Shown here: positions 8,712 to 42,453 of the stretch, piece after piece
How positions within the stretch are numbered: position 1 is the stretch's first letter
Layout: each line of letters starts with the position of its first letter
NCBI GenBank assembly: GCA_921293015.1
Contig: OV121096.1
Location: forward strand, 14,511,000-14,574,999
DNA length: 64,000 bases
Reading direction: 5' to 3'
Source of the DNA: Phorcus lineatus
Lineage: Eukaryota; Mollusca; Gastropoda; Trochida; Trochidae
Translations under genes and position numbers: made by a program
Notes under the pieces: model-generated
Seen by the model: the letters and a program-made list of their open reading frames with translations, nothing else
Told to the model about the DNA's origin: nothing
Databases searched by the model: none

Positions 8712-8808
8712 AGATCTTTCAAGAATAAAAGACAAAGGTGGAGCACCACCTGTGAAAAGCTTGTTTTTAAGTCCTGGTGCAGATAGTAGCTTTGCAGGCC
8801 CTGTTCAG
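8712..8808 (+). CDS. NUP35: NUP35 internal coding exon (97 nt)
   Basis: The exon is preceded by a pyrimidine-rich acceptor (TTGTTTTTTCAG, ending 8711) and followed by a consensus donor (CAG then GTGAGT at 8809). The first base completes a codon begun in the previous exon; 32 whole codons follow without a stop. The residues include KDKGGAPPVKSL and end SSFAGPVQ. Known: vertebrate NUP35 has a closely similar KDKSGAPPVRSI motif in the N-terminal half, which is the main reason for the name. The other two frames contain stops or resemble nothing known. An (ATT)n microsatellite lies about 95 bp upstream. The upstream exon that should supply two bases of the first codon was not found in 1-8711, which is almost all repeat. 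Confidence 0.8.
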
Positions 8809-9559
8809 GTGAGTTAAGAAATGAAGATTTATGATGCTGTGTGCCTTGAGGGTATTCGACTTTGTCTCAACAAACGCAATTGAACTGTATACACTTCACT
8901 CTAACACTCTAGGATCCAAACTCTTCCATGGTAGGCTGTAAAATCCTCATGAGAATAGCCAGATATTGTTAAACTTTTGGTGTCATCAATACCAACCATC
9001 CATTGCTGCTACACATATCAAAGGTTTGGGTTGACTTGATGAATAATTTTGGACAAATGTAACTTTTCTTGAAAAATCAATTCCTTGGTATCTCAATGTT
9101 TTGAGCGAATCCTTCTCATTTGCAAGTAGATTTTAAATTTTGAATGCCCCTTGGTCCTATAGCTACAGATAAGCTGCGTTTCTCTGTATTTTACGGAAGA
9201 AAATCACTAAAAACGTAACTTTATGATAAAAATATTGGAGTACAATTATGCAGACATTTTCTCTAAAATTCGAAGAATCACAATATTTTGCATACTTGAC
9301 CCTTTGTGGATATGAACGCTCTATGTCAGAATTTGACATATAAACTGATGTCTCTCAATTGTCACTGAAGCCTGTCTGAAGTCACAAAAGTTCATTAACA
9401 TTAACCCTGCTGATCATTTTTCTAAATGTCTATTCAACTTTTTACCTTATCTTGCTTAAAAGGCCCAATGGGCTTGTGGCAACATTCTTCTTGGAGATAC
9501 ATTTTAACACAAACAAACTGCTCTAGTGCAAACACTAAAATCATTAACTAAACTCATGG
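8809..9559. other. Intron sequence, no feature seen
   Basis: Start of the 22.4-kb NUP35 intron. No coding sequence is seen. Around 9457-9500 a short AAAAGGCCCAATGGGCTTGTGGC resembles a decayed start of the AGCTCATC repeat. Confidence 0.5.
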
Positions 9560-10310
9560 TTCGCCTAGAAAAGTACTTGCATTTTGTTTTGATAATGGAC
9601 AAGTATTTGAATTTACAATGCTTACTAAATGTCCTGAAAAAGTACTGGAATTTTGCGGTAATGTCCTTGAAATTTTCAAAATTGTACTGGAATTTACCGT
9701 GACAACGATCAGAATCTAAAACACGGAAGTATCGTCGTTCTGCTAACTGAGCAAATTGATAGAAAAGTGAATGAAACAAAACCAGTCTGCGAGCTTCCAA
9801 TCATTCCAACAAATCGGTAATTTCTGCTACCCAGGATCTAATGCATTCAGGAAATTCTGATGTCGCCATGTGGCACTTTGGAAAATGGCGGCATCGAACA
9901 AAGTTTTGTCACTTGACCTAGTCAATTGATACGTGTCAAATCTGTCAGTTATGAGTGGCAAGCGTGGTTAGTGCGTTTTCAACGCTAAATGTTTAAGCAA
10001 TCCTGCTTATAGTTGGGTAAAGCCATCTGGTGACAAGAGAAATGCTTTCTGCACACCCTGCAATCGTACAATTGACATTTCAAATATGGGAGAGAGCGGG
10101 CTGAAATCTCATATGAAAGGAGAAAACATTGTGCGGCTACGAAATTGAAAGTAATTAAGTCCAACTATTTAAAATTTCTCTGTGAAGAAAGAAGATAGTG
10201 TCGATGTTGGTGATAATTAATATAATTAGAGTAAATAAGTATGAATAATTCTGCGAATAAATGTACTTGAAAAATGGTAAGATGTCCTTGAAAAGTACTG
10301 GAATTTTATT
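9560..10310 (+). mobile_element. Decayed hAT-like element
   Basis: Both sides carry a GTCCTTGAAAAGTACTGGAATTTT-like block (about 9635-9690 and 10283-10310), and a zinc-finger open frame lies between them (9951-10148). This layout fits a hAT transposon remnant. The exact ends and target duplication were not resolved. Confidence 0.45.
9951..10148 (+). pseudogene. BED-like zinc-finger fragment of a hAT-type transposase
   Basis: The open frame begins MSGKRG, has an in-frame TAG at codon 7, and then reads on to TGA at 10146. It contains AFCTPCNRTIDIS followed about 14 residues later by LKSHMKGE, a CxxC...H arrangement like the BED-type finger at the N-terminus of hAT-family proteins. About 66 codons in total; the catalytic domain is absent. 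The family assignment comes from motif spacing and memory of similar proteins, so it is moderate. Confidence 0.45.
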
Positions 10311-10445
10311 CTGTTTTGCCTGTATGAACAATGAAATGAATAAATCAGAACACAATATATACTCAACCAAACTGCATCCTTTGCTGGCAATACATTGACA
10401 ATGTGTATTCCAAAAATGCAGCAGAGATTAATAAGTTCCTTTCCA

Positions 10446-10676
10446 TTAGTTCTTATTTCCAAGTTTTTGAAGAGAGAGGAGTATAAAAAAATCTTTAATG
10501 TCATTCAAATGATCTAATTCTGGAATAAATTCGTCTTTGTCAGGAAATGTATAATCTTCTAATAAACCTGTCCTGGCATTAAAGTCCTCACATATGACGA
10601 TATCTCTTTTATTATGATGAGACTTCAGATCTAAAATAGCACTTTCCAGGTAGTCAGTGTGGAGTTTTCTGAGCAA
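10446..10676 (-). pseudogene. LINE endonuclease fragment
   Basis: The translation contains RDIVICEDFNARTG followed by a tyrosine. This matches the GDFNAR-type motif of APE endonucleases of non-LTR retrotransposons, with Gly replaced by Glu. Only about 76 residues remain. It lies downstream, on the same strand, of the reverse transcriptase C-terminal fragment at 11317-12277. That is the wrong order for one intact element, so it is a separate or rearranged piece. Confidence 0.55.
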
Positions 10677-11097
10677 AGATTGCTATCTCTCTTGGAGAAC
10701 AATGCTTTATCCTCCTCACAATTCCAACACAACTTCTCCATCATCAAGGATAAGATTATCAAATCTTACGTGTGACATATGGTACCTCTCTTTTTCAGTG
10801 TCCATATCGTCTTAAAGTTTCCTAAGTGCAGTAATCTAAGGTCTAGCAGCTTGGCTTGATCACCAGCGTATAGATATTTGCTCATGAAGAAATACCTTTT
10901 TATAAGTTCATAAGTATTTAAACAAAATTCAAAATGAGATAAAATTTACAACTTACTGCGCTTGAATGTCCCGCTCAATATTTTAGCACTTAGGATGAAG
11001 ATATATGGGGAGACTGGATCTCCCTGCCAACAGAACAGAACAGAATTTTATTTCCCCATAATTCACAACAATGACATAGAGAACAGTTAAATATATC

Positions 11098-11143
<46 letters not shown>

Positions 11144-11146
11144 TTA
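11098..11146. repeat. AT-rich microsatellite
   Basis: A run of alternating TA with CATA steps in the presumed 3' flank of the minus-strand LINE fragment. It produces spurious Tyr/Ile-rich open frames on the - strand. Confidence 0.85.
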
Positions 11147-11316
11147 CAAATTGGAGTAATAGTGTGCCGTATACATAGACATGTGTTGTGCATAGATTAC
11201 ACAGACCTTCTATAACGAATTTTGCCAAGTTTAGTAAAAGTGGTTTATAAGTAGTTTTCAAGAGGGCTGTATACTTTTCATTTGAAGGATACTTACAGTG
11301 ATACGATGGAAGGTAT

Positions 11317-12277
11317 TTACTTCTTAATATTGATGGAAAAGGGGCAGGCCAAAAGGAAATGAAATTCGTCACTGGTGTAAATATTACAGAGTTTACAAAT
11401 TCTTTTGTCCTTATAAATTTTACTCCACCGACCAGTTTCAATAGGTAATTTATGGTTTGAAGTTTTGAAGCGGGTAAGCCAAATTCTTAGATTGCTAGGA
11501 AGTTCTAAAATATATGAGTCGATATGGGGTTTAACTTTGTAAATTTTGTAGTATTTAGCTTTTGAGGAATCAATTTGAGAAGCAGTCCACATTTGGAAAA
11601 ATTTGTCAATAAGGACTCGTTTAATAGATGAGTTTAAAATGTGTGAACTGTTAAAATATTGTTTTATCCATCCATAAATGAAACCTGTTTCCCGCAATAT
11701 TCCTTCAATTGAATTAATTGAATTGAAATTGAATTTAGTATTTGCATTTTGTAAAGTATACATAAGAAGGTACATTTGATATGATAATTTATTTGGGTTT
11801 TGCAACATTTTACGCCAGAAAGAAATAGTTCTACTTTTGATACAAATACTGAGAGGATAACGGCCAAGTTCGCCATAGACCATATAATCTGGTGTAGACA
11901 TTTTTACTTTAAGAATATATTTACAAAATTTAAGATGAATCCGTTCAAGACAAATAATATTTTCAAATCCCCTCACTTCATGAATATAAAAGTATTGGCT
12001 GTACAAGTTGATCAAATAGTTTTAACTGACAATCAAGGGGGATATCTAAAATATTAACTTTACGCAATGATGCGAACATTGATCTTGAGGCTTGCCCATA
12101 CAGGCGTTTAATACATTTACAGAAACGACCTGCAACCTCTTGAGTTTTGGAAAAAGTTCTCCCAAACCCATTTACTAAAACACTACATTTCATATCGTGG
12201 AATAAAGTCAATATCTTTTTTTGTAGTCTTGGTCCGAAATTAAAGACTTCTAAGACATTTACCCTCAGGCAGACCAC
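11317..12277 (-). pseudogene. LINE reverse transcriptase C-terminal region
   Basis: Two overlapping frames (11978-12277 and 11317-12015) separated by a frameshift carry the end of a non-LTR retrotransposon polyprotein. Visible signs: a FDQLVQPILLYS segment that follows the RT core in many LINEs, a VYGELGRYPLSI segment, and a terminal CKLCN...DEFHFLLACP zinc-like motif. The RT catalytic FADD box is not in this fragment. The same C-terminal type occurs on the + strand at about 15960-17234. Confidence 0.65.
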
Positions 12278-12289
12278 CTATCACCTCGC

Positions 12290-12555
12290 TACATGAGTAA
12301 AGCGTGCTTCCACGTCAATCAATCAAAGTCTTGTGATCAGGTCATGGTGTTGTTCATTTCTGTTTGTCTTTTTAATAAAACATTAAGACATTCGGTAAGA
12401 TAAATTGTTATCACATTCCATCAAGGGTGACATAGGGATATATTATTCCCACAAAAGGTTTTATGCATATGGGGTAACTTGACAGGAGATCCCTTCATCT
12501 GGGAAGTCCTTCAACCTGTTGTCGTGTCACATATCGACAACTTTGCACTGGAGAC
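12290..12555. other. Intron sequence, no feature seen
   Basis: No coding or repeat structure recognised between the LINE fragment and the next hAT-like element. Confidence 0.5.
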
Positions 12556-13370
12556 AAGTGCTGCAGCCAGGCTGTGTAATTGCGGGAATCCCGCTAATTG
12601 AACTTACCTTGGCGCTTTATTTATAACGTATGCGAAAAGTAGTCCCTAGTTGAGAATTTTTTTCAATGACTTGTAATTATTATTTTGTAACATGTGATGG
12701 TGGAAATGAAAGGTCTAATGCTGTAGTGTGTGTGTAATTTTTTCTGGATTTTAATTTCACTGTTATGGTGCTGGTGTGAGCCGGCGATCTGACCCCAAGT
12801 TGAAGGCCGAGTGACTGACGGCCTTGACATTAGGGTGATATTTGTTTACCGGTCTTCGGAGCCGCAAAATGTGTGCTCATTTTTTGACTGAAAAGTGCTC
12901 TTTGGCAGGTAAGTCAGTGTGCAAAAGCTCAATGGTCTACCAGATATAGGGAAGTGGCTGTGTTAGAAACACAATGGTGATAGAACTACTTGGAAATAAT
13001 TGTGGTCTATGGCCAATTATTTGATGCAACGTGTAAACAAGAATAATAACAGATTATTTTGTCAAACAAACAAAGTCAAACAAATGAAGCAGATGAAGTA
13101 ACAGAAAAAGATGATGCAACTGTTGAGGTGCATACCGAAAGGATTGTTATTGATGAAAATCGTGAAGCTGTCCAAACAGACGAAACGGAAACTGCAGAGC
13201 GAAGTGACCGTCACATGGCCAAAACTAAATTCATTCACAAGTATTTATTATTTTTTACGCTTGTCTAAGTGTATACTAGAGCTAGTTTTCGGAATTTCTC
13301 TAATTGGCCCACATTTTCAAAAGTTGGGGGCCAATTGGCCCCTGCCACTGAAATCCTGGCTGCAGCACTG
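12556..13370. mobile_element. hAT-like non-autonomous element, about 0.8 kb
   Basis: The ends are inverted: AGTGCTGCAGCCAGG near 12557 and CCTGGCTGCAGCACTG ending 13370. Just inside the right end is GGGGGCCAATTGGCCCC, a feature shared with the right end of the element at 21622-22805. No convincing target duplication was found. A 69-codon acidic open frame at 13059-13268 could be a transposase scrap but resembles nothing certain. Confidence 0.5.
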
Positions 13371-13482
13371 ATAGTCAGTTTAAGTGGTAAAGAGTTATTC
13401 TTGTCATTTTGAAAGGTTTGATAAAATCACATTTTTGGGTCAAAATTGACAGATTTATCATGGTCAGAGGTGACGTTCACAG

Positions 13483-14634
13483 CACAGGGGCGTGTATCGC
13501 CGAAAATAATAATAGTAATATATAATGAAGAAAAAAAAGGGTATCTCTACTATATAAATACTAAAGGGATGTAACGCCCTCAGACCCCTCGTCTTGTTCC
13601 GGGACGAAATCAATTTGGAAATTCAATATAGATTAATATAACAATATACACACATGAAGCCTGATAAATTCCCTTTCAATAGAATGTGAAACAATCAAAA
13701 TCGGTTGACTTTTGACAGAGCTACACTGTTTTGAAATCGAAAAAAGTATGTTTTCTTGTGAGTACGCCAAAATCCTGCCTCACTAAAACATCGCTTTCAA
13801 ACTGATAAAATACGAATTAAACCCTCGCATTCGTACTTTGCACGAGAAATACAACTTTATCGCAATCCCCTTGCATTCCGATTTCGTAGCGTGACTATTC
13901 AAATGAAATATTATGTGATATATACCTTGTAAGCGAGCTTTTAATGCATTATATGCGGTTTCGATCGCTCGAGTCTGCCATGTTTGACCTCAATATTGGA
14001 CAGATGGCATAGAATAGGAGCGGCTCGCTAATTGGTTAAACATTAACTCTTCTGTAGTGAAGTTACAAAGAATTAATGTTTAGCATATCAGCGAGCCGCT
14101 AGTATTCTGCGCTATCCTTCCGATATTAAGGTCAAACATGGCTGACCCGAGCGATCGAAACCACATTTAATGCAGTAAAAGCTCGCTTACGAGGTATTAA
14201 TCACATAATATTTCATCTGAATAGTCATGCTACGAAATCGGAATACATAGGGATTGCGATAAAGTTGTATTTCTCGTGCAAAGTACGAATGCGAGTGTTT
14301 AATTCGTATTTTATCAGTTTGAAAGCGATGTATTAGTGAGGCAGGATTTTGGCATTCACAAGAAAACATACTTTTTTCGATTTCAAAACAGTGTAGCTCT
14401 GTCAAAAGTCAACCGATTTTGATTGTTTCACATTCTATCGAAAGGGAATTTATCAGGCTTCATGTGTGTATATTGTTATATTAATCTATATTGAATTTCC
14501 AAGTTGATTTCGTCCCGGAACAAGACGAGGGGTCTGAGGGCGTTACATCCCTTTAGTATTTATATAGTAGGGATACCCTTTTTTTTCTTCATTATATATT
14601 ACTATTATTATTTTCGGCGATACACGCCCCTGTG
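13483..14634. mobile_element. 1.15-kb foldback (hairpin) DNA element with 8-bp target duplication
   Basis: The left half (13483 to about 14050) and right half (about 14075-14634) are near-perfect inverted copies around a small centre near 14063. Ends: CACAGGGGCGTGTATCGCCG and its complement. The 8-bp direct repeat GTTCACAG lies immediately outside both ends (13475-13482 and 14635-14642). End sequence and 8-bp duplication fit a hAT-superfamily foldback MITE. It has no transposase. Inside the NUP35 intron it would be transcribed as a long hairpin RNA. Confidence 0.85.
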
Positions 14635-14642
14635 GTTCACAG

Positions 14643-14884
14643 TATATATGTTTAAAAAAACTGCACTAATGAACATAATCAAACAAATATAATAATATCA
14701 TGCTTATGATTAGTGATAATTTATGTCAACAGTGCAATTAATTTTTCATTTACTTACAAAAATCTACAGTATGTGACATGTCCGTCCGTAAATTTTGTGT
14801 CCTGACCGTAAGGGCAAAATATAATTGCTACAATAATTTGCCCCTTATGCTGCATATTGTCTGTACTTGCTGTTTCTGAATGTT
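14643..14884. other. Short spacer, no feature seen
   Basis: AT-rich sequence between the foldback element and the SINE; nothing recognised. Confidence 0.5.
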
Positions 14885-14900
14885 CTAAATCCTCTATATG

Positions 14901-17234: not shown

Positions 17235-17244
17235 TATTTATGTA

Positions 17245-17559: not shown

Positions 17560-17569
17560 TATTTATGTA

Positions 17570-19661: not shown

Positions 19662-19663
19662 TA

Positions 19664-25698: not shown

Positions 25699-26744
25699 AG
25701 TTGGAATCTCAGTAGAGTCAATATTTTGAAACTTTTATTCCTCGGAACACACTCTGCAAATATTAACCCAAAGTACAGCAAATAATTCTTAAATTGTAGG
25801 TTTCCTAAAAGTTAATTGTTTACATCAATTATTTGTTGTGTTTAGTTAATATTTGATATGTTTACAAATGAAATACGAAGATGAGTGAATAAGTTATCTA
25901 ATTGATATTGAATCTGTTATAATAAAACCTATAGTATCAGGTTTTCTGTATTAGCAGTTAATCTGATGATTAATAAGAAGTAAAGAGAACATCAGCTCTG
26001 AATCTTATGATAGACAATCAGACGCAATCCGAGTTTACACTTTAACGTAAAAGATCTATTAGGGAACCTTTAAATCTCTAGCACATACCACTAATGCCTA
26101 TCTTTCGATATTTCTAACGACCCACATTAAGTTATCTATCAAAAATGTTATTCGGTAAATATGTACGCATTCAGGTAACAAAGCCAATTCTGATAATAAT
26201 GCAAAGTTTCAATTAATCTGCATGTTCTCACTCACTCAGTTATGCTGCTGTCTGCAGCTTGTGTGTAATAAAGTTCAGTTCAGAATATTTACTCAGTTGA
26301 AGCCATTCTTGTAAATGCCTTTTCATGTAAAATTGTTATTTATTGTGACTTACCTCCATGAGAGATAATCTGTGCATAAGTTTTACCAGTAACACAGCAG
26401 GAATAACATTTACAAGCAATTTGCTGCAAACTACAAACTTACAGGCAAAACACACTTGTAGGTAACAATGTTTAATGTTATGTTGCCACTTGCATGTTTC
26501 CGAGTGGTTCTTGTCCAAATTATTTCACATCCACGATGAGCTCCTTCCTTTCAGGCCATGCTGAGTTTAAGACAAATACATTTTGTTATGGCCTGATCAA
26601 TAATTCACAATAGTGTTATGGTGGATATCCGGATTGGATATTAGGTGGTTGGGTAACCCTGTAGAATATTGAGACAAGTGCCAGCCCTAGTCAATAAATG
26701 GTACCTTTCTTTCGCACTCAGTATCTTGTATACCACTTTGCATA
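25699..26744. other. Intron sequence, no clear feature
   Basis: No gene is seen. An AATAAAGTTCAGTTCAG motif near 26266 could be the end of an LTR belonging to the gypsy-like relic, but no second copy was found. Confidence 0.4.
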
Positions 26745-29700
26745 TTTTGATAAATTTTACATCTAAATAAAGATGAAACAATGTTCTTCATTTCCATATA
26801 TTGATCATACCTGCGCACACAAAAATAAAGGCACAAAAAGCGCCGGAAATTGGGCAACTTTCGCATTACGTATGTCTGTAACCAAGTGGCGTGCTCAACG
26901 TTTGGTATCAGCGTAAAGAGCGGAAAATTCTCTTCAATTTGATATAAAATTTGTATATGCGCTCACAGAAATAAAGATTCAACAAGCATCGCTAAAATGT
27001 TATAAATAAAATGTAATAGGTACAAAAATGATGACGGAAACGCTGTCTCTTTAATGTTCAATTATAGAGTTTTATAAACCATGAAAGTTAAAGGAGAAAA
27101 AACTTTGGGGTTTACATTCACAGAGTTATGATGTCTTTTTTGAGTGAGGGGATTTTTGTATTGGGCACCGCCATCAGGTCATGGGAAAACTGTCCAGCGA
27201 AAATGATCGTGGTTGAGACACAGTATGTCGGGGATCTTCCGTCAGGCACCGCCATGAGGTCATGGCAAAATTGTCTAACGAAAATGTTTGTGATTGAGAC
27301 ACAGTATGTCAGAATCTACCGTCGGGAACCGCCATTAGGTCATGTCAAAATTGTCCAGCGAAAATGTTGGTGGTTGAGACACAGTATGTTGGGGACCTTC
27401 CGTCGGACACCGCCATCAGGTATGGGGGATTTTGCAACAAAAAGTTTTTGATCGAGGAATCTCATTTTTGAAAATAAAGTTTAGTAGCATTCCGAGGTTT
27501 TAAACATTTTGCTATATATTGGGATGGCATGGGTTCCATTGAGTGACAAGGGACCGTGTGCTCGTTTACTACGGACAACTGACAGAACCTGTGGAACCTA
27601 TAATTCTCGGAAGAGAAGTAACTCTTGTAATCCACAACTGACAATCAGAACTTCCCTGACGTAGAAGGCAGTTGTTCGCGACTCGCCAGCTCGTTGCTTT
27701 GGAAGTCAGAAGGCAGCATCTAGGTTGATAAAGTTGACACAACGTCGGCTGCCCTCGGTGCCATCGGCACCTTCGGCAGGATTGTGAAAAGTCGTCAGAC
27801 AGTTAAAAAATGTCCAGCAACATTAGAACCGTTTTCGTCAGATATGTGAAAAGTTGTCTGAAAGTTAGAAATTGTCCAGCAAAGTTACAATTTGTCCTGA
27901 TTTGTTACTTTTGCAAAGTCATAAAACAAAATGTCTGGCATTCGCCAGGACAATTAGAAAATGTCCGGTTCACCACCATTACTGATGGCCGCTGGCATCA
28001 TCGGCGCAACAGCAAATATATTTAAACACTTCCAGAATGTGGCAATTGAATGTCCATTAAGCTCACATTGAATTTCTCTGTACAATAGGTCATGTGTTGA
28101 TGTTATATCTTGCTTGTGCCTGAATTATTTTCAATCAATTACAGATTGATGGGAAAGATGCCTAAGGCCAGCAGGCCCCGGACTAGGAGTTGGGAAGGTC
28201 CGTCAACGTCTAGTGACGATAACTTCATTAACGAGATCCATGCCGATGAAGCTTCTGATATGGAATCAACTGATGAGAGTGATAGTGACAGTGATATAGG
28301 AAGTGACATTGATAGTGATCAAGTAATATGAAACATTGCAAGAGACATATTAGCTGGTACGGGTAGAACTGCTAAGGCTGGTACTTCCACAGAGGAAGAG
28401 TTCAGTGGCTTTGATGAGCAATATAATGAATTTGACACACATTTTGATGACCAAGATAACTTTATGGAGCGCTGGGAAGAGGGGCCGAGGCAACGTGGAC
28501 ATGTCGATTTGCATTTTCGTGGCGACACAGGATTTGGACGGTTCATAGATTTGCCTGATAATCCGCATCCTGTAGACTTTTTCGGACTGTTTTTTTCATG
28601 AAAATGATTATGGATCATTGGCAGCAGAAACCAACAGATACTTCCACCAACAGGTCAATGATAAGGTTTTAAAACCCTGTTCACCGTTGAGGCAATGGTA
28701 TGATACGAATGCTGAAGAAATGAAAGTATTTGTAGCAATGACAATAGCAATGTCTGTGGTTGTACAGAGAATCTTTTCTGAGTATTGGTCAACAAGTGAT
28801 GTGACGTTGATGCCCTTCTTTTCCACATGCATGCCCCGCGACAGGTTTTGGATACTGCTAACGTACTTACATTTGAATGATAACAACCAAATGCCGGGAC
28901 GAAATACTCCACATTTTTCACCAATGAATAAACTTGGCTATCTGTACCAACGCATCATTTATAGTTTTTCCAGAGTTTATAAGCTGCACCAAAACATTTT
29001 GGAAAGGCAATCCAAGTTTCAAAGTATACAATCCCGACAAGCATGGGATAAAGAAGTATGGGATAAAGAAGTATGAGATAAAGAAGTATGGGATAAAGGC
29101 CTACATGTTGTGCGACTCAACCAATTGTTATGTTTGAAAGTTCAAACTCTACACTGGAAAAACAAATGAAGCTATTTCTGTTGGTGGGAAAATGTATGAT
29201 CTCATCATGGACTTGGTGAAGGATTATGCTCAGAAAGGGTATCATGTGTTCATGGACAATTTCTATTCCTCTGTGGCATTGTATATAAACTTGTGGGAAA
29301 TGGGAACTGGTGCGACGAGAACTTTGAGAGGAAATCGCAAAGGCATTCCTGAAAAGCTAAAGAAGGCACAGAAGAAACAGAAGAAAGGGGATATGATAGT
29401 CTATCACAATCAAGACCTACTCGTTTTGCGGTATGAGGACAGGAAGTCAGTGTTGCTCATGTCAACCGTAGAAGACGCCGAAATTGTAGAGACAGGAAAG
29501 AAGAACCGAGTGACTGGGGAAGCAAATACGAGACCACGTATTGTGCACAAATACAACAAATATATGGGAGGTGTGGATCGTGCCGACCAGATGCTGTCGT
29601 ACACCCCGTTCAAAATGAAAACTCTTAAATGGTGGAAGCGCTTGTGGTTTCATGTGTTGAACGTTGTCATGTTGAATTCTTACATTCTCTATAAAGAAAT

Positions 29701-30475
29701 CTCAAAAGACAAACCTTTAAAAACAAGCCGTCAATTTAGAAAAGATTTGGTGCAGCATATGATCACCTTCGCCGAAACAGAAAAAGTGCCCTCCATGCGC
29801 AGACGTCCTCGCGGCCGGCCGAGCACGAGCAACGATAGTGTCTTGCGACTCCAAGGTCGTCACTTTCCATCAAAGATTCAGCCTGTTGGAAAGAAGAAAA
29901 ACCTCTCACGCATGTGTGTTGTTTGCTCCAAAGCGAAAAGAGAACTTCGTCGAAGGGAAGTCGAAGAAACCAATCAGCCAGTTCGAAAGAAGAAAAGGGT
30001 AGGCAAAAAGTCTTCTTTCGAGGGTAAGGAGTGTAGTGTCGCTCTGTGTGCAGCACCATGTTTCAGACTTTATCACAGGTCACAAGATTGCACTAAAGCT
30101 TATATCAGTTTGACGACAGAGAATGACAGTGAGGGGGATAATCAAGAAGATTGAAGAAAGAAGAAAGAAGCAGAAGTGTGGATTCGCGTTACTCTCCTAA
30201 ACCAGTTTGTACTTCACACCAAAAAGGTGAAAAGTGAATTCATTGTAACATATTGTAAATAAATATTCTTTTTTTTTTATTTCGTAAAAGAGACAGAGAA
30301 AGTCAATGTAAGCTGTCACTGGACTAGCAATACGAGCCGCATCACCCGATCTTTCGCAATTTGTATCTTTAGAATCGGGTGGCGAAACTTTATAATTTTT
30401 AAATCAGCTTAAAGGGAAAAGCTCAGAATTAGGGATTTTATTCAGCCAGAATTAAAGACAATATTTAGATACATG
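26745..30475 (+). mobile_element. piggyBac-family transposon PB-2, both ends missing
   Basis: Reversed relative to PB-1, so its transposase is on the + strand, sense to NUP35. From the left: units matching the PB-1 right array (26745-27010), four 81-bp repeats (27163-27430), the motif-rich 5' region (27780-28150), the transposase (28158-30154), then 30155-30475. In that last part an internal deletion joins sequence equal to about 3250 of PB-1 with sequence equal to about 2250 (the AGGGATTTTATTCAGCC word). The TTAA-CCCTT ends are absent on both sides. Confidence 0.8.
28158..30154 (+). pseudogene. piggyBac-type transposase, PB-2 copy (nonsense, frameshifts, catalytic Asp lost)
   Basis: The start at 28158 reads MPKASRPRTRSW. 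Breaks in order: a CGA-to-TGA stop at about 28329 after the acidic run; one extra T near 28590 shifting the frame; and a deletion of about 25 bases near 29001 that removes the codons for the first catalytic Asp (ICVDEGLVP in PB-3) and shifts frame again. At 29044-29098 a 15-16 bp GGGATAAAGAAGTAT unit is repeated about three times where PB-1 and PB-3 have one. From 29192 a 320-codon open frame remains with VFMDNFYSS, GGVDRADQML and the Cys-rich C-terminus (CVVCSKAKRELRRRE...CAAPCF). Not functional. Confidence 0.9.
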
Positions 30476-31126: not shown

Positions 31127-31222
31127 AATCACAGTTAGGATATAAAAGAGAATTTTCTAATATTATGGGGATAAATCCATTCTTAGGATGCAATAGTAAC
31201 ACTTTGACAATTCTTGTTTCAG

Positions 31223-31307
31223 TCGTTCGCATCACAGTTGACCCCAAGATGTCCTGGAAGCTCCTCTATAGCAGTACGAGGGGTTTCTCCAGGGCCCCCA
31301 ACAGCAG
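31223..31307 (+). CDS. NUP35: NUP35 internal coding exon (85 nt)
   Basis: The acceptor is TTCTTGTTTCAG (ending 31222), with a branch-point-like CTTTGAC a short way upstream. The donor is GCAG followed by GTACAG at 31308. Read in the phase dictated by the previous exon, it gives 28 open codons starting SFASQLTPRCPG and ending PGPPTA, then a single base G that pairs with the first two bases of the exon at 42342 to make a glycine codon. The sequence is rich in Ser, Pro and Gly, as expected for this unstructured part of NUP35, but has no strongly conserved motif. The assignment rests on splice sites, phase agreement on both sides and position between two recognisable exons. A hairpin MITE ends about 95 bp upstream. 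Confidence 0.72.
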
Positions 31308-31477
31308 GTACAGGCACTCATTATTTAGGGCTGCTGTCAGTTTTAGTCTGGTTTCAACCGCCGCCACATTGTATTAAGCTTTTTCCACTGAGACTTTCAG
31401 AACTCATATACATAACTTCTTATTTATACTTGGGGGGAGGGGGGGGACATGTTTTGATATGTTCACATTGAAAGTCA
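31308..31477. other. Intron sequence with a G run
   Basis: Start of the 11.0-kb NUP35 intron. A GGGGGGAGGGGGGG run lies near 31432-31446. No gene. Confidence 0.5.
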
Positions 31478-31765
31478 AATAATGATGATAATAATAATAA
31501 TAATAATGTGGATATTTATAAGGCGCACATTTCCATCCTCTAGTGCATGCTCAAGGCGCTACCAACATTATTACCCTGGTTCTACCCAAGCTGACATATT
31601 TGTCACTAGAAGGTCACCACCAACACACTGCTTTACCAGGTACCCATTTCCTGCTGGGTGAACAGAGGCACATTTCGAACTAAGTCTCTTGCCCAAGTAG
31701 ACACCACAAGTCTCTTAACTCGTGTCTCAGTGTGGGGCAGGGATCATTTATTGATGATACCACCT
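31478..31765 (-). mobile_element. Short interspersed repeat or LINE tail with (AAT)n end
   Basis: Begins with an (ATA/AAT)n run at 31487-31507, then ATGTGGATATTTATAAGGCGC and TGCTCAAGGCGCT. This layout, read on the - strand, is a tail of SINEs and L2/CR1-like LINEs ending in an ATT microsatellite. The LINE at 61145-63108 ends in a similar way (GCTCAAAGCGCAT next to ATAATAATAG). No coding sequence. Confidence 0.5.
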
Positions 31766-32026
31766 GGGAATTCTATGGACATGTTTACATTCAAGTTAAA
31801 AGTTAAAAGTAACAAATTCTGAAATCACTAAACAAAAATTCAAAATTTTGTGAAATCACCTCAATGAAGTCATGAAATCTAAATGCAACAGGTTGTGAGT
31901 CCAATTTTCGTGGCTTTAATGCTAAGTTGCTTTTGTGGCATATTTAGAATTTTTTTATTGTGGCTGTTAAGAGGGTGGAATCTTCAGTTTCGGGGCTTTG
32001 CAGTGTTCTGCTCATCTAGTCTTGTT

Positions 32027-32206
32027 TAGTAGCACACCAAGTAGAAGCACATTTGATTCAACCTTTTTCTTGTCTAGTATCACACCAAGTGGAAGCACAT
32101 TTGATTCAACATTTTTCTTGTCTACTAGCACACCAAGTAAAAGCACATTTGATTCAACATTGTTCTTGTCTGGTAGCACACCAAATAGAAGCACATTATT
32201 TTCCAT
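32027..32206. repeat. 48-bp minisatellite, about 3.8 units
   Basis: Units begin TAGTAGCACACCAAGTAGAA at 32027, with the next at 32075, 32123 and 32171, so the period is 48 bp. One more unit is at about 40026-40066. Because 48 is a multiple of three, both strands show open Ser/Thr-rich or Val/Leu-rich repeat frames. I see no sign that they are coding. Confidence 0.85.
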
Positions 32207-32209
32207 AAG

Positions 32210-32760
32210 CCTTAATTCGGCTTGCGCATATCAATCTAGTATGTTGCTCCATGTTCCGTTATTGACGCTTTTCAAAGAAATTTCTTACTCCGATCACAAA
32301 ACAACCATGTGATCTCCCCTGTGGCAGTGTGGTGCCATCTGATCATTCTTGCTCTTGTGTTGCATGGAAACAGATGCCTCTTCGCTTTATTTTGAGTGCA
32401 AGGAATTTCTCCTTGTTCGAAGGTAAGCATTTATTTATATTATATATATCTTTCTGATTTCGATTGTGGCATCGAACATAGTTCGAGCAGTAATTCACAG
32501 TCTACTATTTTCACTGAGAATGTGGTTCCGGTAAGGTAACTGTAAATTCATTATGTCTGTCAGAACTTTTTTATTGCCACGTGGTAAGGAGGTTACCACT
32601 GTTGTGGGTGATTTTGTTCTTTTGTCAAAACCGAAAACACTGTTTCGGTTGATACATATTTGATTGACACATTTGTTGTTTCTCGGTCCGGTTGGTGGCA
32701 AGAACTGACCTGTGCTGTTTTCTATTTGGATTTGAATTTGAAAAAGTTCTGTTTTTAGAC
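32210..32760. other. Intron sequence, no clear feature
   Basis: No gene recognised. Possibly the 5' flank of the gag-like relic that follows. Confidence 0.4.
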
Positions 32761-33510
32761 ATGACATCTGATGTGGAGAATGATGTGTTGTCCCTCGAAG
32801 ACAAGGACATAAGTAGTTTTGATGGCTTCTCCAACGTTCAAGCCCAGTACCGACTGAAGGTCAGGGATGTTCCCGCTTCTAACAAGTTATCGCTATCTGT
32901 ATCTGACATTGCTAACCTGAAAGAGAGGTTTGGTTCGCTTACAGACAAACCAGGTAACCCTGAACCTAATGATATTCTGGATGACTCTGAACTGGCCAGA
33001 GTGTGCACAGGATCTGTCAGACCCTTCCTCTCACAACTGGTTTGAAGATGTTGAGTTGGACTTAAGGCTCCTGAGAGGGGCAAGGAAGTGAGAGAGCAAA
33101 GATGCCTAGCAAAGATGCCAAATGTGGCCTTCACAGCTCAGTGCTCCACGGAGGATGTTGTCAAGAAGTACAAGATCCCTGTTAATCGCGAAGGGTTGGC
33201 CCCACCCCTATTTAACACAGAAGTTTGGACAGAGGTAGTTACAGAGCTCATAGTGATGACAAGGCTGTCAGGGAGGTATTACCTTATTACAGTAGGGGTG
33301 CTACCCATTCTGAAGCTAGCGGAGGATGCTAAACTAGCCAGAGACTCAAGGACAAATCTTCAGGACTCTATGCTTTTAATGGGTCAAGCCCAGCTTGCCC
33401 TTAGCATTATCTCCTTTGTCCACACATCAAAAGGACATATTCCAAGCACTGTTCATTCAATACGCCAGTCACAACGCTCCTCTTCGGGGACGACATTGCC
33501 AAGGAAATGA
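32761..33510 (+). pseudogene. Gag-like fragment, possibly of a DIRS-type retroelement
   Basis: A first frame starts MTSDVENDVLSLEDKD and runs to a stop at 33045. A second frame (33088-33510) has KYKIPVNREGLAPPLFNTEVW and later ILKLAEDAKLARD and LLMGQAQLAL. This order (acidic N-terminus, PxNxE-W segment, helical segment) resembles gag-like proteins of DIRS-type elements as I remember them. No reverse transcriptase or recombinase follows. Low to moderate certainty. Confidence 0.35.
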
Positions 33511-34042
33511 AGTGATGCGAATTGTCTATTAGAGTTACACATGATGCCTTTCGGGGGGTCTTCCCGGTGTAACAGGCCAAACTTTACCCCTGGCCAGACT
33601 TTCCCCGGGGAAGGTTTGGCCTAGGACAATCTTTCCCCCCTGGGCTCAGTCTTCCATGGGGAAATTCTGACCTAGGCCATAGTTTCCCAACCCATGATTC
33701 CACTTACACCTATTTATATTGTCCACACTCATAGCAATTTGGTTCCTACTTAACCCTCAAGCCGCGGTATACGGAATGGTCATACATTGGTGATGGAAAT
33801 TTACAAACATTTGAAATAGTTCACATTTTGTTTTTCATTGTCTCATTTCTAATTGAAAAAGCGTGTTTATAAAATTTGGTTAGATTTAAAATTGTTTTTG
33901 TATTATCATCAGACATAAGTAAACAAAACATTTCAAATTACTGTTCCTAAGATATCTATGTGGTAAATATTGCTTTCGTATTTCAACATATAAAGTACAT
34001 TTTAAAGAAACATGGAATTAATCTTCTTTTACATTCCTTATC
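33511..34042. other. Intron with GGCCTAGG-rich cluster
   Basis: No gene. 33565-33700 holds several GGCCTAGG and TTTCCCC words related to the 57-bp arrays at 35755-36095 and 39722-40015, partly as a hairpin (CTTTCCCCGGGGAAGG). Confidence 0.5.
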
Positions 34043-34377
34043 CAGGGGCGTAGGAGCGAATTTGAAAGTGGGGGGGCTTGAATTGAAATTTTGTAACCAA
34101 AAAAAAAAAGAAAAGGAAACTTGCTGGCTGCTTATTCTATCTTATCATCAATTAGGACATAATACTGAAGTCAGTTTAATTCCTTGTTTGATTGGATGTT
34201 TTAGTTCTACCCTCAGAGTAGTTTTAGAACTACCCTCAAAGTAGTGCATAGTAACTGTTTTGTAACAATACTAGACCAGTTATTGGTAAATATGTAGTAG
34301 AAAGGGGAAAATAGTCATTTTGGAGAAAAAAAAACATTTCGAAAAAAAGCCAAGCCCCCCCTGTTCCTACGCCCCTG
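34043..34377. mobile_element. 335-bp hAT-like MITE
   Basis: Ends CAGGGGCGTAGGAGC and its near complement GTTCCTACGCCCCTG. Just inside are a G run and a C run (GTGGGGGGGCTTG / CAAGCCCCCCC). TTATC occurs directly outside both ends (34038-34042 and 34378-34382), so the duplication is 5 bp or a decayed 8 bp. No coding. Confidence 0.65.
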
Positions 34378-34394
34378 TTATCCTAGGTCAGTAG

Positions 34395-35676
34395 ATTTTT
34401 ATGTTTTATATCTTCGTAAAGAAGAACAAATTGCCTTCAATTCCATATATGATTTGCTAATATACTCAGTGAAATATGTCATTTATAAAGTTAAAAATAA
34501 AGACAATGACAATTTCTATTATGTGTGAGTGAATTTTTCAATCGGAATGTTGCTGTAAGGCCCGGGTGCGCTTGCCTCGGGCTACTAGCTTAGCAATATG
34601 ACTGTTGGGGTCGGAACTTTAACGGGGTTTAACACCTCTCTGCTTCCGTAATTTATATATTTTGTTTAGGGTGGCATATCCGAATGAACTTTGTTGTGAA
34701 ATATTGGGCAATAAATGGGCTTTATTTCTTTATATAATATGTCAATGTGTACTCGTTAATTAAATGACTTATAACGTTTGAAATAAAGACAACTTTTAGA
34801 TAACTGTAAAATTTGTTGTAGACATATTTTTGGAATAATTTTTATATCGACATCAAGAGGAACTATTCATCTTCAGTTTCGTATTGATTTTGCGCATGCG
34901 CTCTCAGAATTTTTGGAGTTACGGCACTCGAATTAAAAAGAAGGTTACTTCGGTTTTAGAAACCGTTCTAGGGGTGATAGAAATTTCATTTAAATCGCCG
35001 CTTAGTGATTTTCATAACATATTATTTATCTTTGATACAAACCTAAATGTCATATGTGGTGATATAAATTCAAAACATCTTAACTTGTCATATTCAAAAG
35101 ACATATATATATACTGATTTTCCATGAAAATCTAGAACAGCCTTATAAATGCACAGAGGTGTAGATATCACGTCCAATATACATGGATACTAGTTATATA
35201 ACCTAACAAACACTATCGACTCCTAACTGCCCTCCTGGCTGTTTTAGATAAGCCTCCAAAATTACGTTTGACTATTTGACGCGCACGTTTTTACGATAAT
35301 AATTGTGATGTTCTACTTTCATATTGGTACTGTAAAAAAAACCAGTAAGCTTTAAAATGTGTCTTTTCGTTAAACAGTCGATACTTTGCGATCAAATGAC
35401 ACCATTGATTAAGTTTGGCATATATGAATCCAACAACTCACGGAGTGGCTCTTTAAATTGCCAGGTAAGTATCATCCATTTGTATAATAGGGTATTCACC
35501 GACTAGTTTTATATACAACGATATTTATGTCCATAATTCGCCATGTAAACAAAGCATTTATTGGCAAAACGGTCGCGACTCCCGGCACTGGACAATTCAT
35601 TACGCATTATAGGTAGCGAGGGGAGTGCTGGAAAATTCGGCAAAACTGGTCAAAATAATATTCAGCAATTTGAGGG
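34395..35676 (-). mobile_element. piggyBac-family fragment PB-5 (left half, reversed)
   Basis: The right edge is a family end: GAGGG followed by TTAA at 35677-35680, preceded by the CG-rich terminal segment (AATAATATTCAGCAATT). Going left it matches the left part of PB-4, including the CTACTAGCTTAGCAATAT block near 34580 and the GGAATTGAAGGCAAT-type core near 34440. The other half of the element is missing. Confidence 0.65.
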
Positions 35677-35754
35677 TTAACTTACACTTACAAATCATCT
35701 TCTTTTATCTATAGTGGGAAGATACTCACTTATATTGGCAACTTTTTTTTCTGG

Positions 35755-36095
35755 TTAAGCAAGGCCATTCCTTCCCCACCCAGGGTAGTTATATACAGTG
35801 GGTAAATTCTGGCCTAGCTTGGCTATGTCTCCCTCAACTTTAGTGATTATTTACAATGGGGCAACTCTGGCCTAGCTGGGCTATTTCTTCCCCACCCTTG
35901 GTACCTATTTAGAGTGGGGAAACACTAGCCTAGCTGGGCTTTTTCTTCCCCACCCTTGGGATTTATTTTCAAGGGAGTAATTCTAGCCTAGCTAAGCTTT
36001 TTCTTCCCCACTCTTAGTGATTAGGGGGAAAACTCTGGCCTAGTTGGGCTCTTCCTTCCTGACCCTTGGTATTCATTAAGAGTGGAGAAAGGCTT
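35755..36095 (+). repeat. 57-bp minisatellite, about 6 units
   Basis: GGCCTAGC or AGCCTAGC recurs at 35811, 35869, 35928, 35985 and 36037, with CTTCCCCACCCTTGGTA between copies. The inverted version of this array is at 39722-40015. Confidence 0.8.
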
Positions 36096-37107
36096 AATCT
36101 ACAATGAATGATTTGATTGGCTCTTGTGCCTTTGTTCATACTATCAATCGTTTTAGAGAAAATCTCATTCTAAGCGGAGCGATAAAAAGCATTTTATTCT
36201 AACTAAATAATACTTTTCTATTTACGTCTTAGTTCTAACAATGTTACATGTGTATAATTTATTGTTGCGATTATTAGAGCAGTCAAATTAAAATTGTAAG
36301 TTATTAATCACTGACATCTCCGTATTCGTAAAATGCTTTTTTATGTGGATAGTAAGATTCAATTAATTCATTTTAACGTTTTTGATATACACATTCAGTT
36401 TTTGAAAAATGCTATGTTTTAATAAAAAAAAGTATTTTACACTTCTACTCATCATTACTTTATCATTTTGGGTTGCAGAATCATAAAAATTATATGATAA
36501 CATAGCCTAGTGATTTCTCAAAAAGTGTGTGCAGTTTTGTTAAGAATTCTTTTGTAGTTTCGAGAAAATTCGAATTCACGTGACTTTGTTCATTTTACAG
36601 CGCTTCTGCTTAAAAAAATCCAGATGACTGCGGGAGTTAGGCTCAAACATTCCAGCAAGCTAAAGGTTAAACAATTTATGAGAATTAATATTTCTTACCT
36701 TGTTAAACAACAACTTCCAATCCCGCACACGTGATGGAAGGAAGAAATTTTATGAATTTCTGTGCGGCAAAGTGGATTGTGAAAAATGTTGCATGATCTA
36801 TGGATGCAGAGGATAGATTTAAGGGAATTAATTCTGTATTTTGGGTTTTACAATGAAACAAATCTTGAAAAACACTCATCTTGTGAAGTTAACGTTGATC
36901 AGATAATGTAGAATAAATTGTTTCAAGGTAAAGTTTAGAATGACTGACTCCTCTAATGGATCCACATATGGTTCAAAGGGCATCTAAATGTGGTTTTTCT
37001 AATGATGCTGCTTCTGTCTTTGAACAGGTATTCCAAATATAATCAAAATAACAAAATTGGTAGAACAAATGAATTTATTTTTTAGGCTTTTTCTTTTGAG
37101 ATGAAGC
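36096..37107. other. Intron sequence, nothing recognised
   Basis: About 1 kb of AT-rich sequence between the 57-bp array and PB-4. No gene or repeat recognised. Confidence 0.5.
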
Positions 37108-37111
37108 TTAA

Positions 37112-39546
37112 CCCTTCCGTTGCTGAATATTATTTTGACCAGTTTTGCCCCCGTGGCTGAATTTTCCAGCACTCGCCTCGCTACGGTAATAACGCAATTA
37201 GCCCCTGTGGCCGAATTTTCCAGCGCCGCCAGATGCGACCGTTTTAACAACATATGGCGTGTTTACATGGCGGAATACGGACGTTATCGTCGTTTTATAC
37301 AAAGCTAGTCGCCGAATCCCGTGTTATAAATGGATGATACTTACTTGACACTTTGAATGAAATTTCTATCACCCCTGGAACGGTTTCTACAACCGAAGTA
37401 AACTTGTTTTCAATTCGGGCGCCATAACTCAATAAATTCCAAGAGCGCATGCGCGAAATCAAAACGAAACTAAAGATGAATTGTTCCTTTTCACATCGAT
37501 ATAAAAATTATTTTTATAATATGTCTGAAACGAATTTTACTAAATTTTAAAAATTGTCTTCATTTCAAACATTATAAAATCATTTAATCACTGAGTGCAC
37601 ACATGCAAATTATATACAAAATTGAAGCTAATTTCTTGCTCTATATTCCACGATAAATTTTATTACGATACGCCATCCTAAACGAAAGATATAAATAACG
37701 AAAGCAGGGTAGTGATAAATCCCGATAACGTTCTGACCCCCACAGTAATATTACTAAGCTAGTAGCCCTGGGCAAACGCACGCGCTCAGCGCGTGCAGGC
37801 GGGGTATCCCCGCTGAAAAATACACTCACACTTAACAGAAATTGTCTTTATTTCCAATTTTATAATTGAAGTTATTCGCTTTGTATACATGCAAATTATA
37901 TATGGAATTGAAGGCAATTTATTCTTCTTTACGAAAAAATAAATCATAACAATCTTTTGCACTGTAATTAGAAGTTATTACCAACGTAACGTGGGTATAG
38001 CTAGTGAATAAAGTCTTTGATAATCGCCTTACCGCGACATTTGTCGCATAATTTCCACACGTTTTATTTTGATGCAAATATGGGCAAATTACACATGAAA
38101 ATGAAGGTATTTATTTCCTCTTTACGTTGATATGAAAATGATAAATATGTACCGCTTGGTTTGGAATATATATAGTTTGCAAAGATTGTACCCTCAGGTA
38201 TTTCAAAACAGATTTTGATAATTGCGACATCACTTACCGCTCTTTTATTGTTTCATTGTAATTTGCAAATTTTACATAGAATTGAAGACGATCCTTTTCT
38301 CTTTATTGTGATATAAAAATGTTGATAATGCGCTCTGCCGTTAAATGGATAGGAAGTGTAAAAAGCAGTTGAAAAAATCGCTTCTCGGTTAACAAGATAT
38401 GAATAGAGAAATTGCCTGTTTGCGCAATGCTCGTCGGGTCTTTACTGATTTTCGTTTACATACAAATTTTATATGGAAAGAAAGATCATCCTTTTCTCTA
38501 TATTTTGATATATGAAATTTCAAAATGTCCCGAGAACTTTATGTGATAAAAAGTGCGAGAAAATGGTAAAAACACAAAGAATAAAGAAAAGTCGCAATTT
38601 TGCGGCACTTGCTGTATCTTTATTTTATATACTGCATATAACTTTTTTACATCAAATCGAAGACAATTATTTCCTCTTTATCACGAGGTAATCAATTTCA
38701 AAATACGCCTAGCTGTTGAGAAGATATAAATGAAATAAAGGCACATGTCAAAATCGCCGTTCAGTTTACATGATTTGAATAGAGAAATTAGCTTTTTGTG
38801 CGGCGCTTGCTGTGTCTTTATTTATTTTTGCGCATGTACAAATTTTACATGGAATGAAAGACAATCTTTCTCTCTATCTTATAATATAAAAATTGTCAAA
38901 ATAAGTTGACCACATCATGTGAAGATTGGTGTGACAAAATGGTGTAAAACTAAAAATATGTAAAAATCACCTTTTTTGCGGCACATGCTGTATCTTCATT
39001 TCAGGTGGCGTAGTTATGTATTTTATATTGAATTGAAGACAATTTTCTGCTCTTTCAAAAGATCCAACCGGTATTGTAATACGCCCAAGGGTTCAGAGCA
39101 TAGGGCGTGCGATAGGAAGGCGTGCATAGGGTCAAAATGCACGCGTCTCAGTAAACGATAGCATGCGCGGGTCGGTAAGCTCGTGCGAGAGGGTAGAAAG
39201 TGCCCACAGGCTATTAGCACGTGCGGCGGGGAGTGGGGGAAAATTGAGTGATTTTAACGTTTATTTTCGGTACGATAAACATTATCAATACTCTCATAAC
39301 TTTCGGAGCATGTTCGCGCTTTATTTAGAACACCAACGAAACAAAACACGGTTGCTTAGCGACAGCTGGAACGAAAATACAAGCGTTGAACTGAGACTAC
39401 TGCTAGGCAATAAATTTCCGGGCCCCGCTACCGGTCATAATTAGTTAGCGTGAGAAAAATAGAGTGTGCTACTCGCATCCCGCTAAGGGGACTTGCGGGC
39501 AAAGCTAATTTCATCCCGGAATATTCCGGGACCCGCATCTTAAGGG
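37112..39546. mobile_element. piggyBac-family non-autonomous element PB-4, both ends intact
   Basis: TTAA lies on both sides (37108-37111 and 39547-39550). It has the same ends as PB-1 (CCCTTCCGTTGC left; CATCTTAAGGG right). It contains about eight of the degenerate units (cores near 37600, 37880, 38075, 38260, 38455, 38628, 38825 and 39008) in one uninterrupted series, and no transposase. The last 450 bp (39095-39546) are almost identical to the end of PB-1. The flanks form GAAGC-TTAA-GCTTC, so the empty site was palindromic. Confidence 0.85.
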
Positions 39547-39550
39547 TTAA

Positions 39551-39721
39551 GCTTCTCAAATAAATTATCATAGGAATCCCTTTGGATATTATATTATCAA
39601 TATGCTTATTCCACTGGCAATCATTTTTCAGAATCTAAACTTGTTGTGCCTAATCGTCTATCTTATACAGTCAGCTATATGCTAACAATGATAATTATGC
39701 TATCCATCAATGTTGCATGAA
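39551..39721. other. Short spacer
   Basis: No feature recognised between PB-4 and the second 57-bp array. Confidence 0.5.
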
Positions 39722-40015
39722 GAATTTCCCAACTGTAAATAGATACCAAGGAAGAAATAGCCTAGCTAGGCCCGAATTTCCCCCTTTGATTAGATACCAA
39801 GGGTGGGGAAGAAATAGCCTAGCTAGGCCAGAAGTTCCCCCTTTGATTAGATCCCAAGGGTGGGGAAGAAATAGCCTAGCTTGGCTAGAATTCCCCCCAT
39901 ATAAATAGATACCAAAGGTGGAGAAGAAAATAGCCTAGCTAGGCCAAAATTTCCCTGTAAATAGGTACCAAGGGTGGGGAAGAAATAGCCCAGCTAGGCC
40001 AATATGTCCCTCTGA
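39722..40015 (-). repeat. 57-bp minisatellite, inverted copy, about 5 units
   Basis: CCTAGCTAGG-type words recur at 39761, 39818, 39875, 39933 and 39988, with ACCAAGGGTGGGGAAGAAATAG between copies. This is the reverse complement of the array at 35755-36095. Confidence 0.8.
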
Positions 40016-40067
40016 ATAAACCAAGTAGTACACCAAGTAGAAGCACATTTGATGAAACATTTTTCAC

Positions 40068-40592
40068 TTTTTAGCTCATTTGACCTGAAATGGGCTTATG
40101 GCATGGCATGGCATGTTGTCATCTGTCGATCCATCTTTCTGTCTCTAAACTTATTACTATTTCATCTTCTTCTCCAGGTAATCTGAAATCATATGTAAAG
40201 ACTCCTTGACTAATGAAGGTTTTAGTCTATAGATTTGGTGACCCTTTGACCCTAATAGGACTGGGCCACACCCTAAAAACCTATTTTCATCTTCTTCTCC
40301 AGGAGCAAATTGTCTAGAAAGCTGACACTTTGTTTACAGACTCCTTAGGTAATGGGGATACTAATTTATGCAATTGGTGACCCTGTAACCCCTAATAAGG
40401 ATGATAGGGCGCACGCCCTAAAGACCTATCTTCATCTTTTTCTCCAGAAGCAAATGAGTAGTACAGACTCCTTAGATCATGGGGATTGTAATTTATAGAC
40501 TTTGTTATTCTCTTGCCCCCAAATGGTGACCTGCAACCAATAGTAAAATAAATTATAGATAGCCTAATGAGCTACTAATGGCTCTATTTCTG
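40068..40592 (+). repeat. Second copy of the AGCTCATC mollusc repeat
   Basis: Starts TTTTTAGCTCATTTGACC with GGGCTTATGGCATGGCATGG, continues with three decayed CATCTTCTTCTCCAG units and ends ATGAGCTACTAATGGCTCT. It is preceded at 40026-40066 by one 48-bp minisatellite unit like those at 32027. Confidence 0.75.
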
Positions 40593-41218
40593 TGATATGA
40601 AACTAGCCAAAATGCACCTAGAGTTGAACGTGTAGTGTGAAATAAAGGTTTATGACTAAAGAAAATCTCAAAATCATTTATTAGCGGCACTTGCTGTAGT
40701 GCATATATACACATTAAAGAAAATGTTTGTTGTTTTCCAATCATCAATCATACATTGAAAACTATACAATGGTCAGATCAAAAGTAGGATGCGCTTTTGC
40801 TTTCTGAGAAAACAGTCACACTTGTAGTTTGATGTATCCATGTGTTGGAAAGTGACTGGCAAATAAGGTTCATAGCATAGGAATGCTTAGCACGAGTAAA
40901 TTGGGCTTCTGTTATTGTGATTTTAGATGCGGTAGATTAAACAATGGCTACCAGATTTAGTGATTATTTGGGGCAATTATTTAGAACAAAAACCATGAAA
41001 AAATGGGCGTCATAGCATAATGCATAACATAAATACAAGTGCATATTATACTGGGCTCTCCAAGCAGTAGCAAATCGTTACTGAATTTCTTTTTGAGCAA
41101 CCAAGTGTGGATTAGGCTTTGACCAAAGGGGCTTAAAAAACAAGTAAAGTGATCACATGATATATGGAACCTTGCGTTAATATTTAATGCATTTTTCAAC
41201 CTTAGTTGTAATGAATTT
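40593..41218. other. Intron with a possible scrap of the piggyBac unit
   Basis: No gene. 40680-40740 (TTAGCGGCACTTGCTGTA...ATACACATTAAAGAAAATG) resembles a right-array unit of PB-1, strongly decayed. Confidence 0.4.
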
Positions 41219-41332
41219 AAGAAATAAAGTTCGCTCTACCCCAATGTGTTTTGTAATAAAGTATAGTTTTGCTCAGGGAAAAACTATACTTTATTACAAA
41301 ACACATTGGGGTAGAGCGAACTTTATTTCTTT
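41219..41332. repeat. Perfect-armed 114-bp hairpin
   Basis: Arms of about 52 bp (41219-41270 and 41280-41332) match as inverted complements with almost no mismatch, around a spacer of about 9 bp (GCTCAGGGA). The arms start AAGAAATAAAGTTCGCTC. It is a MITE-like insertion or a snap-back duplication. Confidence 0.85.
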
Positions 41333-42341
41333 TCTAAGATGCTAAAATGATCTTTACAGGGACCACTCTGATTTTAATAATCTCGAAATAAAATATAGTG
41401 TTTACATCGCTCACATTAATAATCCATGAACAGGGCTAACTGTTGGCTATTCCAAGTATGGAACCCAACCCCTAGTTTAAAACGACATTTAGTTGGTTAA
41501 AGCTTTGATTACTGCAGTTTTGCACTTTAACTTTTTCATTTATTCAATTTTGAATTATATTTTCTTCTTATTTTTTTCTTGAAAAACTTAAACAAACAAA
41601 TTAACACCTCTTGTTTTTAAAACAAACTTTACTTTTACAATGTCGTGCAATTATGCAGTGCGGGCCACATTGACCATATAAGGCTTATCACGTGGTTAAC
41701 ATTCCACAAAGAATTGTGGGTATTGTTTGTTGTGGAAGCGTGATGGTGATGGAGGACTGAATCCGGACGTCTATTTTTTTGCTGTTGTCATAAACTTTGA
41801 AGGTGATGCTTTAATCTCTTATATAAGCCGACTGTTGGGGCTGTACACCCAGAATTACTTAATTATTAGGTTCACATTGAACCTGGTAGAGACGGTTGAC
41901 GTGAACCAACGTCACAGTCCCACGGGGCGCCGTGACCTGACGTGAAACAACGCGGTTACTCGACAGTCGACAAGCATTTGCTTTGCATTCTTCTTTCTGG
42001 TAAATAGAACTAGATAATTCGAAACTAGTCTCCATTAAAAGAAACATTTTCGGCAAAATCGCCAATACGATAGACATTGACAGGGATAAGCCATGTTGAT
42101 CGAAAGAACCGAGATGAAAGGTTACCATGGACCCGTGATCACGAGGGGGCAGCGGGGAAGAGCGGATATAACGTCATTCAATTGTTACGTCATGAAAAAA
42201 CTATACCTTTATTATATATTTTTCGATTGTTCTAACCGCTAGGCATCTTAGAAAATGCAATACAAGATGAGCTGCAGATTTCATGGCTCTATTTTCCAAC
42301 ATCAAAAGTTGATAAATAATAAGTGAGGGAATATTTTTCAG
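41333..42341. other. Intron with a mollusc-repeat 3' end before the exon
   Basis: No gene. 42242-42295 carries GATGAGCTGCAGATTTCATGGCTCTATTTT, matching the 3' end of the AGCTCATC repeat (1611-1640 and 40560-40590). It ends about 45 bp before the acceptor of the NUP35 exon. Confidence 0.55.
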
Positions 42342-42453
42342 GATTATTGCAAGGAGGCACAAGCTCAGCTCGCTGTGGAGAGAGTTTTATCACTGGAATG
42401 ACAAGCAAGATCCCAACATCCCCTGCACAGATGGATCCATTCTACACTCAGGG
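42342..42453 (+). CDS. NUP35: NUP35 internal coding exon (112 nt) leading into the RRM
   Basis: The acceptor is ATATTTTTCAG (ending 42341) and the donor is GG followed by GTAACA at 42454. In the frame set by the previous exon it encodes 36 whole codons ending SPAQMDPFYTQ, plus two bases (GG) of a following glycine codon. Known: vertebrate NUP35 has LSPAQLDPFYTQG directly before the RRM/MPPN domain, so this is the most diagnostic of the three exons. The next exon should begin with one base completing Gly and then encode an acidic stretch and the RRM start. I looked for it through 64000 and did not see it, so that intron exceeds 21 kb or the exon is too diverged to spot. The 3' end of a mollusc repeat lies about 50 bp upstream. 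Confidence 0.85.

Follow-up and report, generated by a model that had tools for sequence, protein, structure and literature searches.

The three short exons that the first-pass annotation placed in a 64-kb stretch of Phorcus lineatus DNA almost certainly belong to a NUP35 (NUP53) gene, of which eight exons could be recognised by homology and phase and for which the genome searches turned up no further copy. The NUP35 protein, regarded as essential, is part of the nuclear pore scaffold and has a domain of the RRM type as well as a helix at its C-terminus. The gene lies on the plus strand and would be spliced from short exons, with introns of 0.3 to 22.6 kb that would have been partly enlarged by DNA transposons. 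The whole stretch analysed, called the window here, covers positions 14511000-14574999 of a 44.6-Mb contig, and the genome-wide searches covered 958 Mb in 74 contigs.

Exons inside the window and beyond its end

Within the window, the first of the recognised exons (exon 1; positions 8712-8808, plus strand, 97 nt) reads DLSRIKDKGGAPPVKSLFLSPGADSSFAGPVQ and was identified from its AG/GT borders, its phase and a tblastn match. Exon 2 (31223-31307, plus strand, 85 nt) reads SFASQLTPRCPGSSSIAVRGVSPGPPTA; its similarity is weak and it was placed by its splice sites and its frame-keeping length. Exon 3 (42342-42453, plus strand, 112 nt) carries SPAQMDPFYTQG at its end and was placed by its splice borders, tblastn and the PDB alignment. 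When joined, the three exons form a single open frame with no stop, with AG acceptors and GT donors throughout, and this frame contains both GGAPPVKSL and SPAQMDPFYTQG. Thus, the boundaries, the in-phase joins and the two motifs were all found as first proposed. The donors match the 9-base consensus at nine (exon 1), six (exon 2) and five (exon 3) positions; the donor of exon 3 is poor, yet exon 3 joins exon 4 in phase, which backs it.

Alignment of NUP35 proteins to the window had been suggested as a check. In an unspliced tblastn search of the 64-kb window with human NUP35, exon 3 was the top match (35.0 bits, E = 1.3e-4) and exon 1 the second best (27.3 bits, E = 0.033), both on the correct strand and in the correct order. 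With shuffled human NUP35 queries, the score of exon 3 was reached by 0 of 100 and that of exon 1 by 2 of 100. Because of these two, exon 1 by itself is borderline and cannot decide the case; exon 3 is set clearly apart, and, as far as sequence comparison goes, the downstream exons settle the matter. A Pfam search with exons 1-3 alone returned no family up to E = 1, and the single match up to E = 1 in the corresponding PDB search was NUP35 (E = 0.027).

The gene continues past the window. Exons 4-6 encode the RRM domain and are found 1.1 to 1.9 kb beyond the window end, at positions 65072-65125 (starting at L007:2072), 65404-65473 and 65817-65945 on the window scale. Exons 7 (82189-82350; L008:9189-9350) and 8 (88411-88488; L009:5411-5488) follow about 18 and 24 kb beyond the end, and the stop codon is at 88488. 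All five are on the plus strand, in phase and bordered by AG and GT. The exon order, the phase, the homology and the correctly placed stop codon are direct observations. Together, the eight exons amount to 787 nt within 79,777 nt (79.8 kb); the gene first described as spread across 34 kb is real, but much longer, at least 79.8 kb.

The first of the recognised introns (8809-31222, 22,414 nt) contains a piggyBac-type copy and a long palindrome, and intron 2 (31308-42341, 11,034 nt) contains a piggyBac end fragment (38598-39550). Intron 3 occupies 42454-64000 in the window and runs on to 65071 (22,618 nt in all), and introns 4-7 measure 278, 343, 16,243 and 6,060 nt, the last two calculated from coordinates. 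About 86% of the window is intron, in agreement with the earlier proposal that it is mostly intronic, so that most open frames there are to be read as insertions.

Exon 2, which is likely correct, is the weakest of the recognised exons, resting on splice signals, phase and an open frame, with little similarity. Since exon 1 closes on a complete codon (phase 0) and exon 3 opens with a codon's final two bases, an exon of length 3n+1, or several adding up to it, is required between them. We took the splice scores of exon 2 itself as thresholds; in the gap between exons 1 and 3, 111 candidates 60-150 nt long scored at least as high. The needed length (one more than a multiple of 3) was found in 33 of them, and five of these 33, exon 2 included, were open. 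It is conceivable that exon 2 is wrong and that some other short exon in the 33.5-kb gap bridges true NUP35 exons 1 and 3, as its direct similarity to NUP35 is slight and four further open, in-phase candidates have splice scores equal to or above its own. However, exon 2 combines the needed length and an open frame with CAG borders on both sides and the expected Ser/Pro/Gly-rich reading, a composition that by eye it alone shows among the five, whereas the other four fit this region of NUP35 worse by eye and one of them resembles a piece of transposase. Such a replacement of exon 2 is thus unlikely.

Identity as NUP35 and copy number

The identity proposed in the first-pass annotation was borne out by the protein obtained from the eight exons. 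This protein of 261 residues aligned to human NUP35 (PDB 7r5j) with E = 1.2e-59 over its own residues 22-261, and the alignment reaches the C-terminal tryptophan with which the human chain ends. In the PDB search, human NUP35 was the best of seven distinct sequences at E <= 0.01, all seven of which are named NUP35 or NUP53, and solved RRM domains of NUP35/NUP53 were also matched. The Pfam family RRM_Nup35 (PF05172) scored 103.2 bits against a cut-off of 24 (E = 7.3e-30), the match falling mainly in exons 4-6 just outside the window, and Nup35_RRM_2 scored 40.1 bits. The conserved motif SPAQ-DPFYTQG precedes the RRM and is joined to it in phase. The protein ends with VLKGDDAPQKDMSFVSKLKEYVLGW followed by the stop, and this end aligns with the human C-terminus and finishes in GW. 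Judged from this alignment, the C-terminal helix region is present at the protein end, and membrane binding by it is putative.

Human NUP35 (PDB 7r5j, 326 aa; RRM structures 4lir and 1wwh) shows the same order of elements: GGAPPV/SGAPPV, SPAQxDPFYTQG, the RRM, AYK-SDYQV, and VSK-EY-GW at the end. In tblastn, GGAPPVKSL pairs with human SGAPPVRSI, and it is left unpaired in the PDB-search alignment. The two proteins differ in that the N-terminal 80 or so residues of human NUP35 were not located in this gene, and in the Ser/Pro-rich linker and the region following the RRM, both of which have diverged here. Among the matches listed in a literature search by titles and abstract openings, whose coverage of print is unproven, no title dealt with NUP35 gene structure.

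The first-pass annotation had named a complete NUP35 gene elsewhere as evidence against its model, and no second NUP35 was found genome-wide with either the RRM_Nup35 profile or the human protein, each search scoring the best candidates only. The profile gave one match at E <= 0.001 (six candidates scored), at contig positions 14576813-14576944, 1.8 kb beyond the end of the window on the strand that carries the window exons. The human query gave two matches at E <= 10, each of them within this locus (E = 2.9e-13 and 0.104; three candidates scored). It recovered exons 5 and 6 only and skipped the short window exons, so a very diverged second copy could be missed.

The borderline score of exon 1 and the lack of a Pfam match to exons 1-3 alone are what one would see if the window merely held chance matches to short motifs. 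The score of exon 3, however, was equalled by none of the shuffled queries, and the RRM and C-terminal exons come next on the same strand and in phase; the alignment of the joined protein to human NUP35 refutes chance, whose probability we regard as negligible. It is also extremely unlikely that the exons are relics of a decayed NUP35 duplicate, with the working gene elsewhere or absent from the assembly. The failure to find one or more 5' exons would fit decay, but all eight exons are open, in phase and bordered by AG and GT, the RRM and the C-terminus are well conserved, and the genome-wide searches gave no other copy. A processed copy is excluded by the retained introns. The NUP35 gene that we favour would be transcribed with these junctions, and its protein would probably work as in other animals.

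The upstream end of the gene

The first base of exon 1 is the third base of a codon, and at least one exon must therefore lie upstream. The N-terminal exon or exons and the start codon were not found in the 111 kb upstream of the window with degenerate patterns (FLMG(D/E), LP.FLMG and LGSP, which we take to be N-terminal NUP35 motifs, and looser forms). This search covered 12 loci, 11 of 10,000 bases and one of 2,000 (1,000 of them overlapping the window). We inspected 24 short stretches around pattern hits, a subset of the hits and nearly all on the plus strand, and read the stop-to-stop frames in two of the 11 large loci (at least 32 aa), in half of the small locus (at least 20 aa) and in window positions 1-8711 (at least 25 aa); none of these stretches or frames held a convincing 5' exon. 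Window positions 1-8711 are mostly repeat, consisting of a 145-bp tandem array (385-1498; 7.8 copies, 87% matches) and a piggyBac-type element (1774-8111). Farther upstream, L004:3503-5569 (plus strand) contains a stop-to-stop frame of 688 aa that matches DUF4371 weakly (23.2 bits; the cut-off is 32.1) and that may be a hAT-type transposase.

Genome-wide, LP-x-FLMG-(D/E) had two matches compared with one for the reversed pattern; both lie on other contigs, in surroundings unlike NUP35. P-M-x-L-G-S-P and its variants had 29 matches and the control had 33. Of the 29, two are on the contig of the window, millions of bases away; four others were inspected and rejected. A looser pattern gave 252 matches versus 185 for its control, with none on this contig among the matches listed. 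Human NUP35 residues 1-97 gave one match when used as a genome-wide protein query (E = 0.835), on another contig and with an internal stop. The N-terminal motif may have diverged, may be interrupted by an intron or may lie at a greater distance. One N-terminal pattern match brought up a 188-aa frame that is TIR-like by eye (L014:1264-1830, plus strand, contig C13).

Transposons in and around the introns

Three piggyBac-type copies were found in the window. Copy A (1774-8111, minus strand) lies upstream of the first recognised exon; copy B (26701-30421, plus strand) is in intron 1, with transposase frames at 28618-29076 and 29192-30154; and copy C (46412-56910, minus strand) is in intron 3. The earlier reading of the transposons as insertions in the gene thus holds for B and C, which sit in NUP35 introns, and does not extend directly to A; given the expected 5' exon upstream of it, A is likely intronic as well. 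Transposase frames of all three copies match Pfam DDE_Tnp_1_7, as in the piggyBac superfamily, and A and C have TTAA at both ends together with CCCTT/AAGGG termini. Clean ends were looked for in copy B and none were found. Copy A shares 92% identity with C across an alignment of 3.07 kb and 87% with B across 3.3 kb. In contrast with the piggyBac superfamily, A has a length of about 6.3 kb and C, once its insertion is discounted, of about 6.5 kb, their non-coding parts contain tandem repeats (199-bp units at 2638-3158 in A and 47062-47539 in C), and in A and B the transposase domain is divided between separate frames; the scanned frame of C covers profile positions 102-349 of 349.

Copy C is split by a 4,041-bp insertion (49857-53897), whose borders match a stretch that is continuous in copy A. 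Together with the TTAA at either end of C, these borders lead us to infer that both halves of C belong to a single element. By eye, the frames of the insertion are retroelement-like, with a zinc knuckle and a DTG protease motif. Elsewhere in the window, intron 1 contains a 1.15-kb near-palindrome (13483-14634; 93% overall, with one arm pair 99% complementary), which is possibly a fold-back element, and a 270-aa frame on the minus strand (61582-62394) resembles part of a LINE by eye and matches no Pfam family at E = 0.01. Neither Rfam, at gathering scores, nor a tRNA scan gave a hit in the window. That the intronic transposon copies alter the expression or splicing of NUP35, for example through the palindrome or the nested insertion in intron 3, is very unlikely.

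Long transposon-bearing introns in conserved genes are common in large animal genomes. The architecture described here, a conserved gene found once and containing such introns, is ordinary, and our views of nuclear pores or of transposons are unchanged by it. It is nevertheless a useful result for annotation: a conserved gene could be pieced together from exons 54 to 162 nt long within large introns, and the transposon frames of the window sit inside or beside a host gene.
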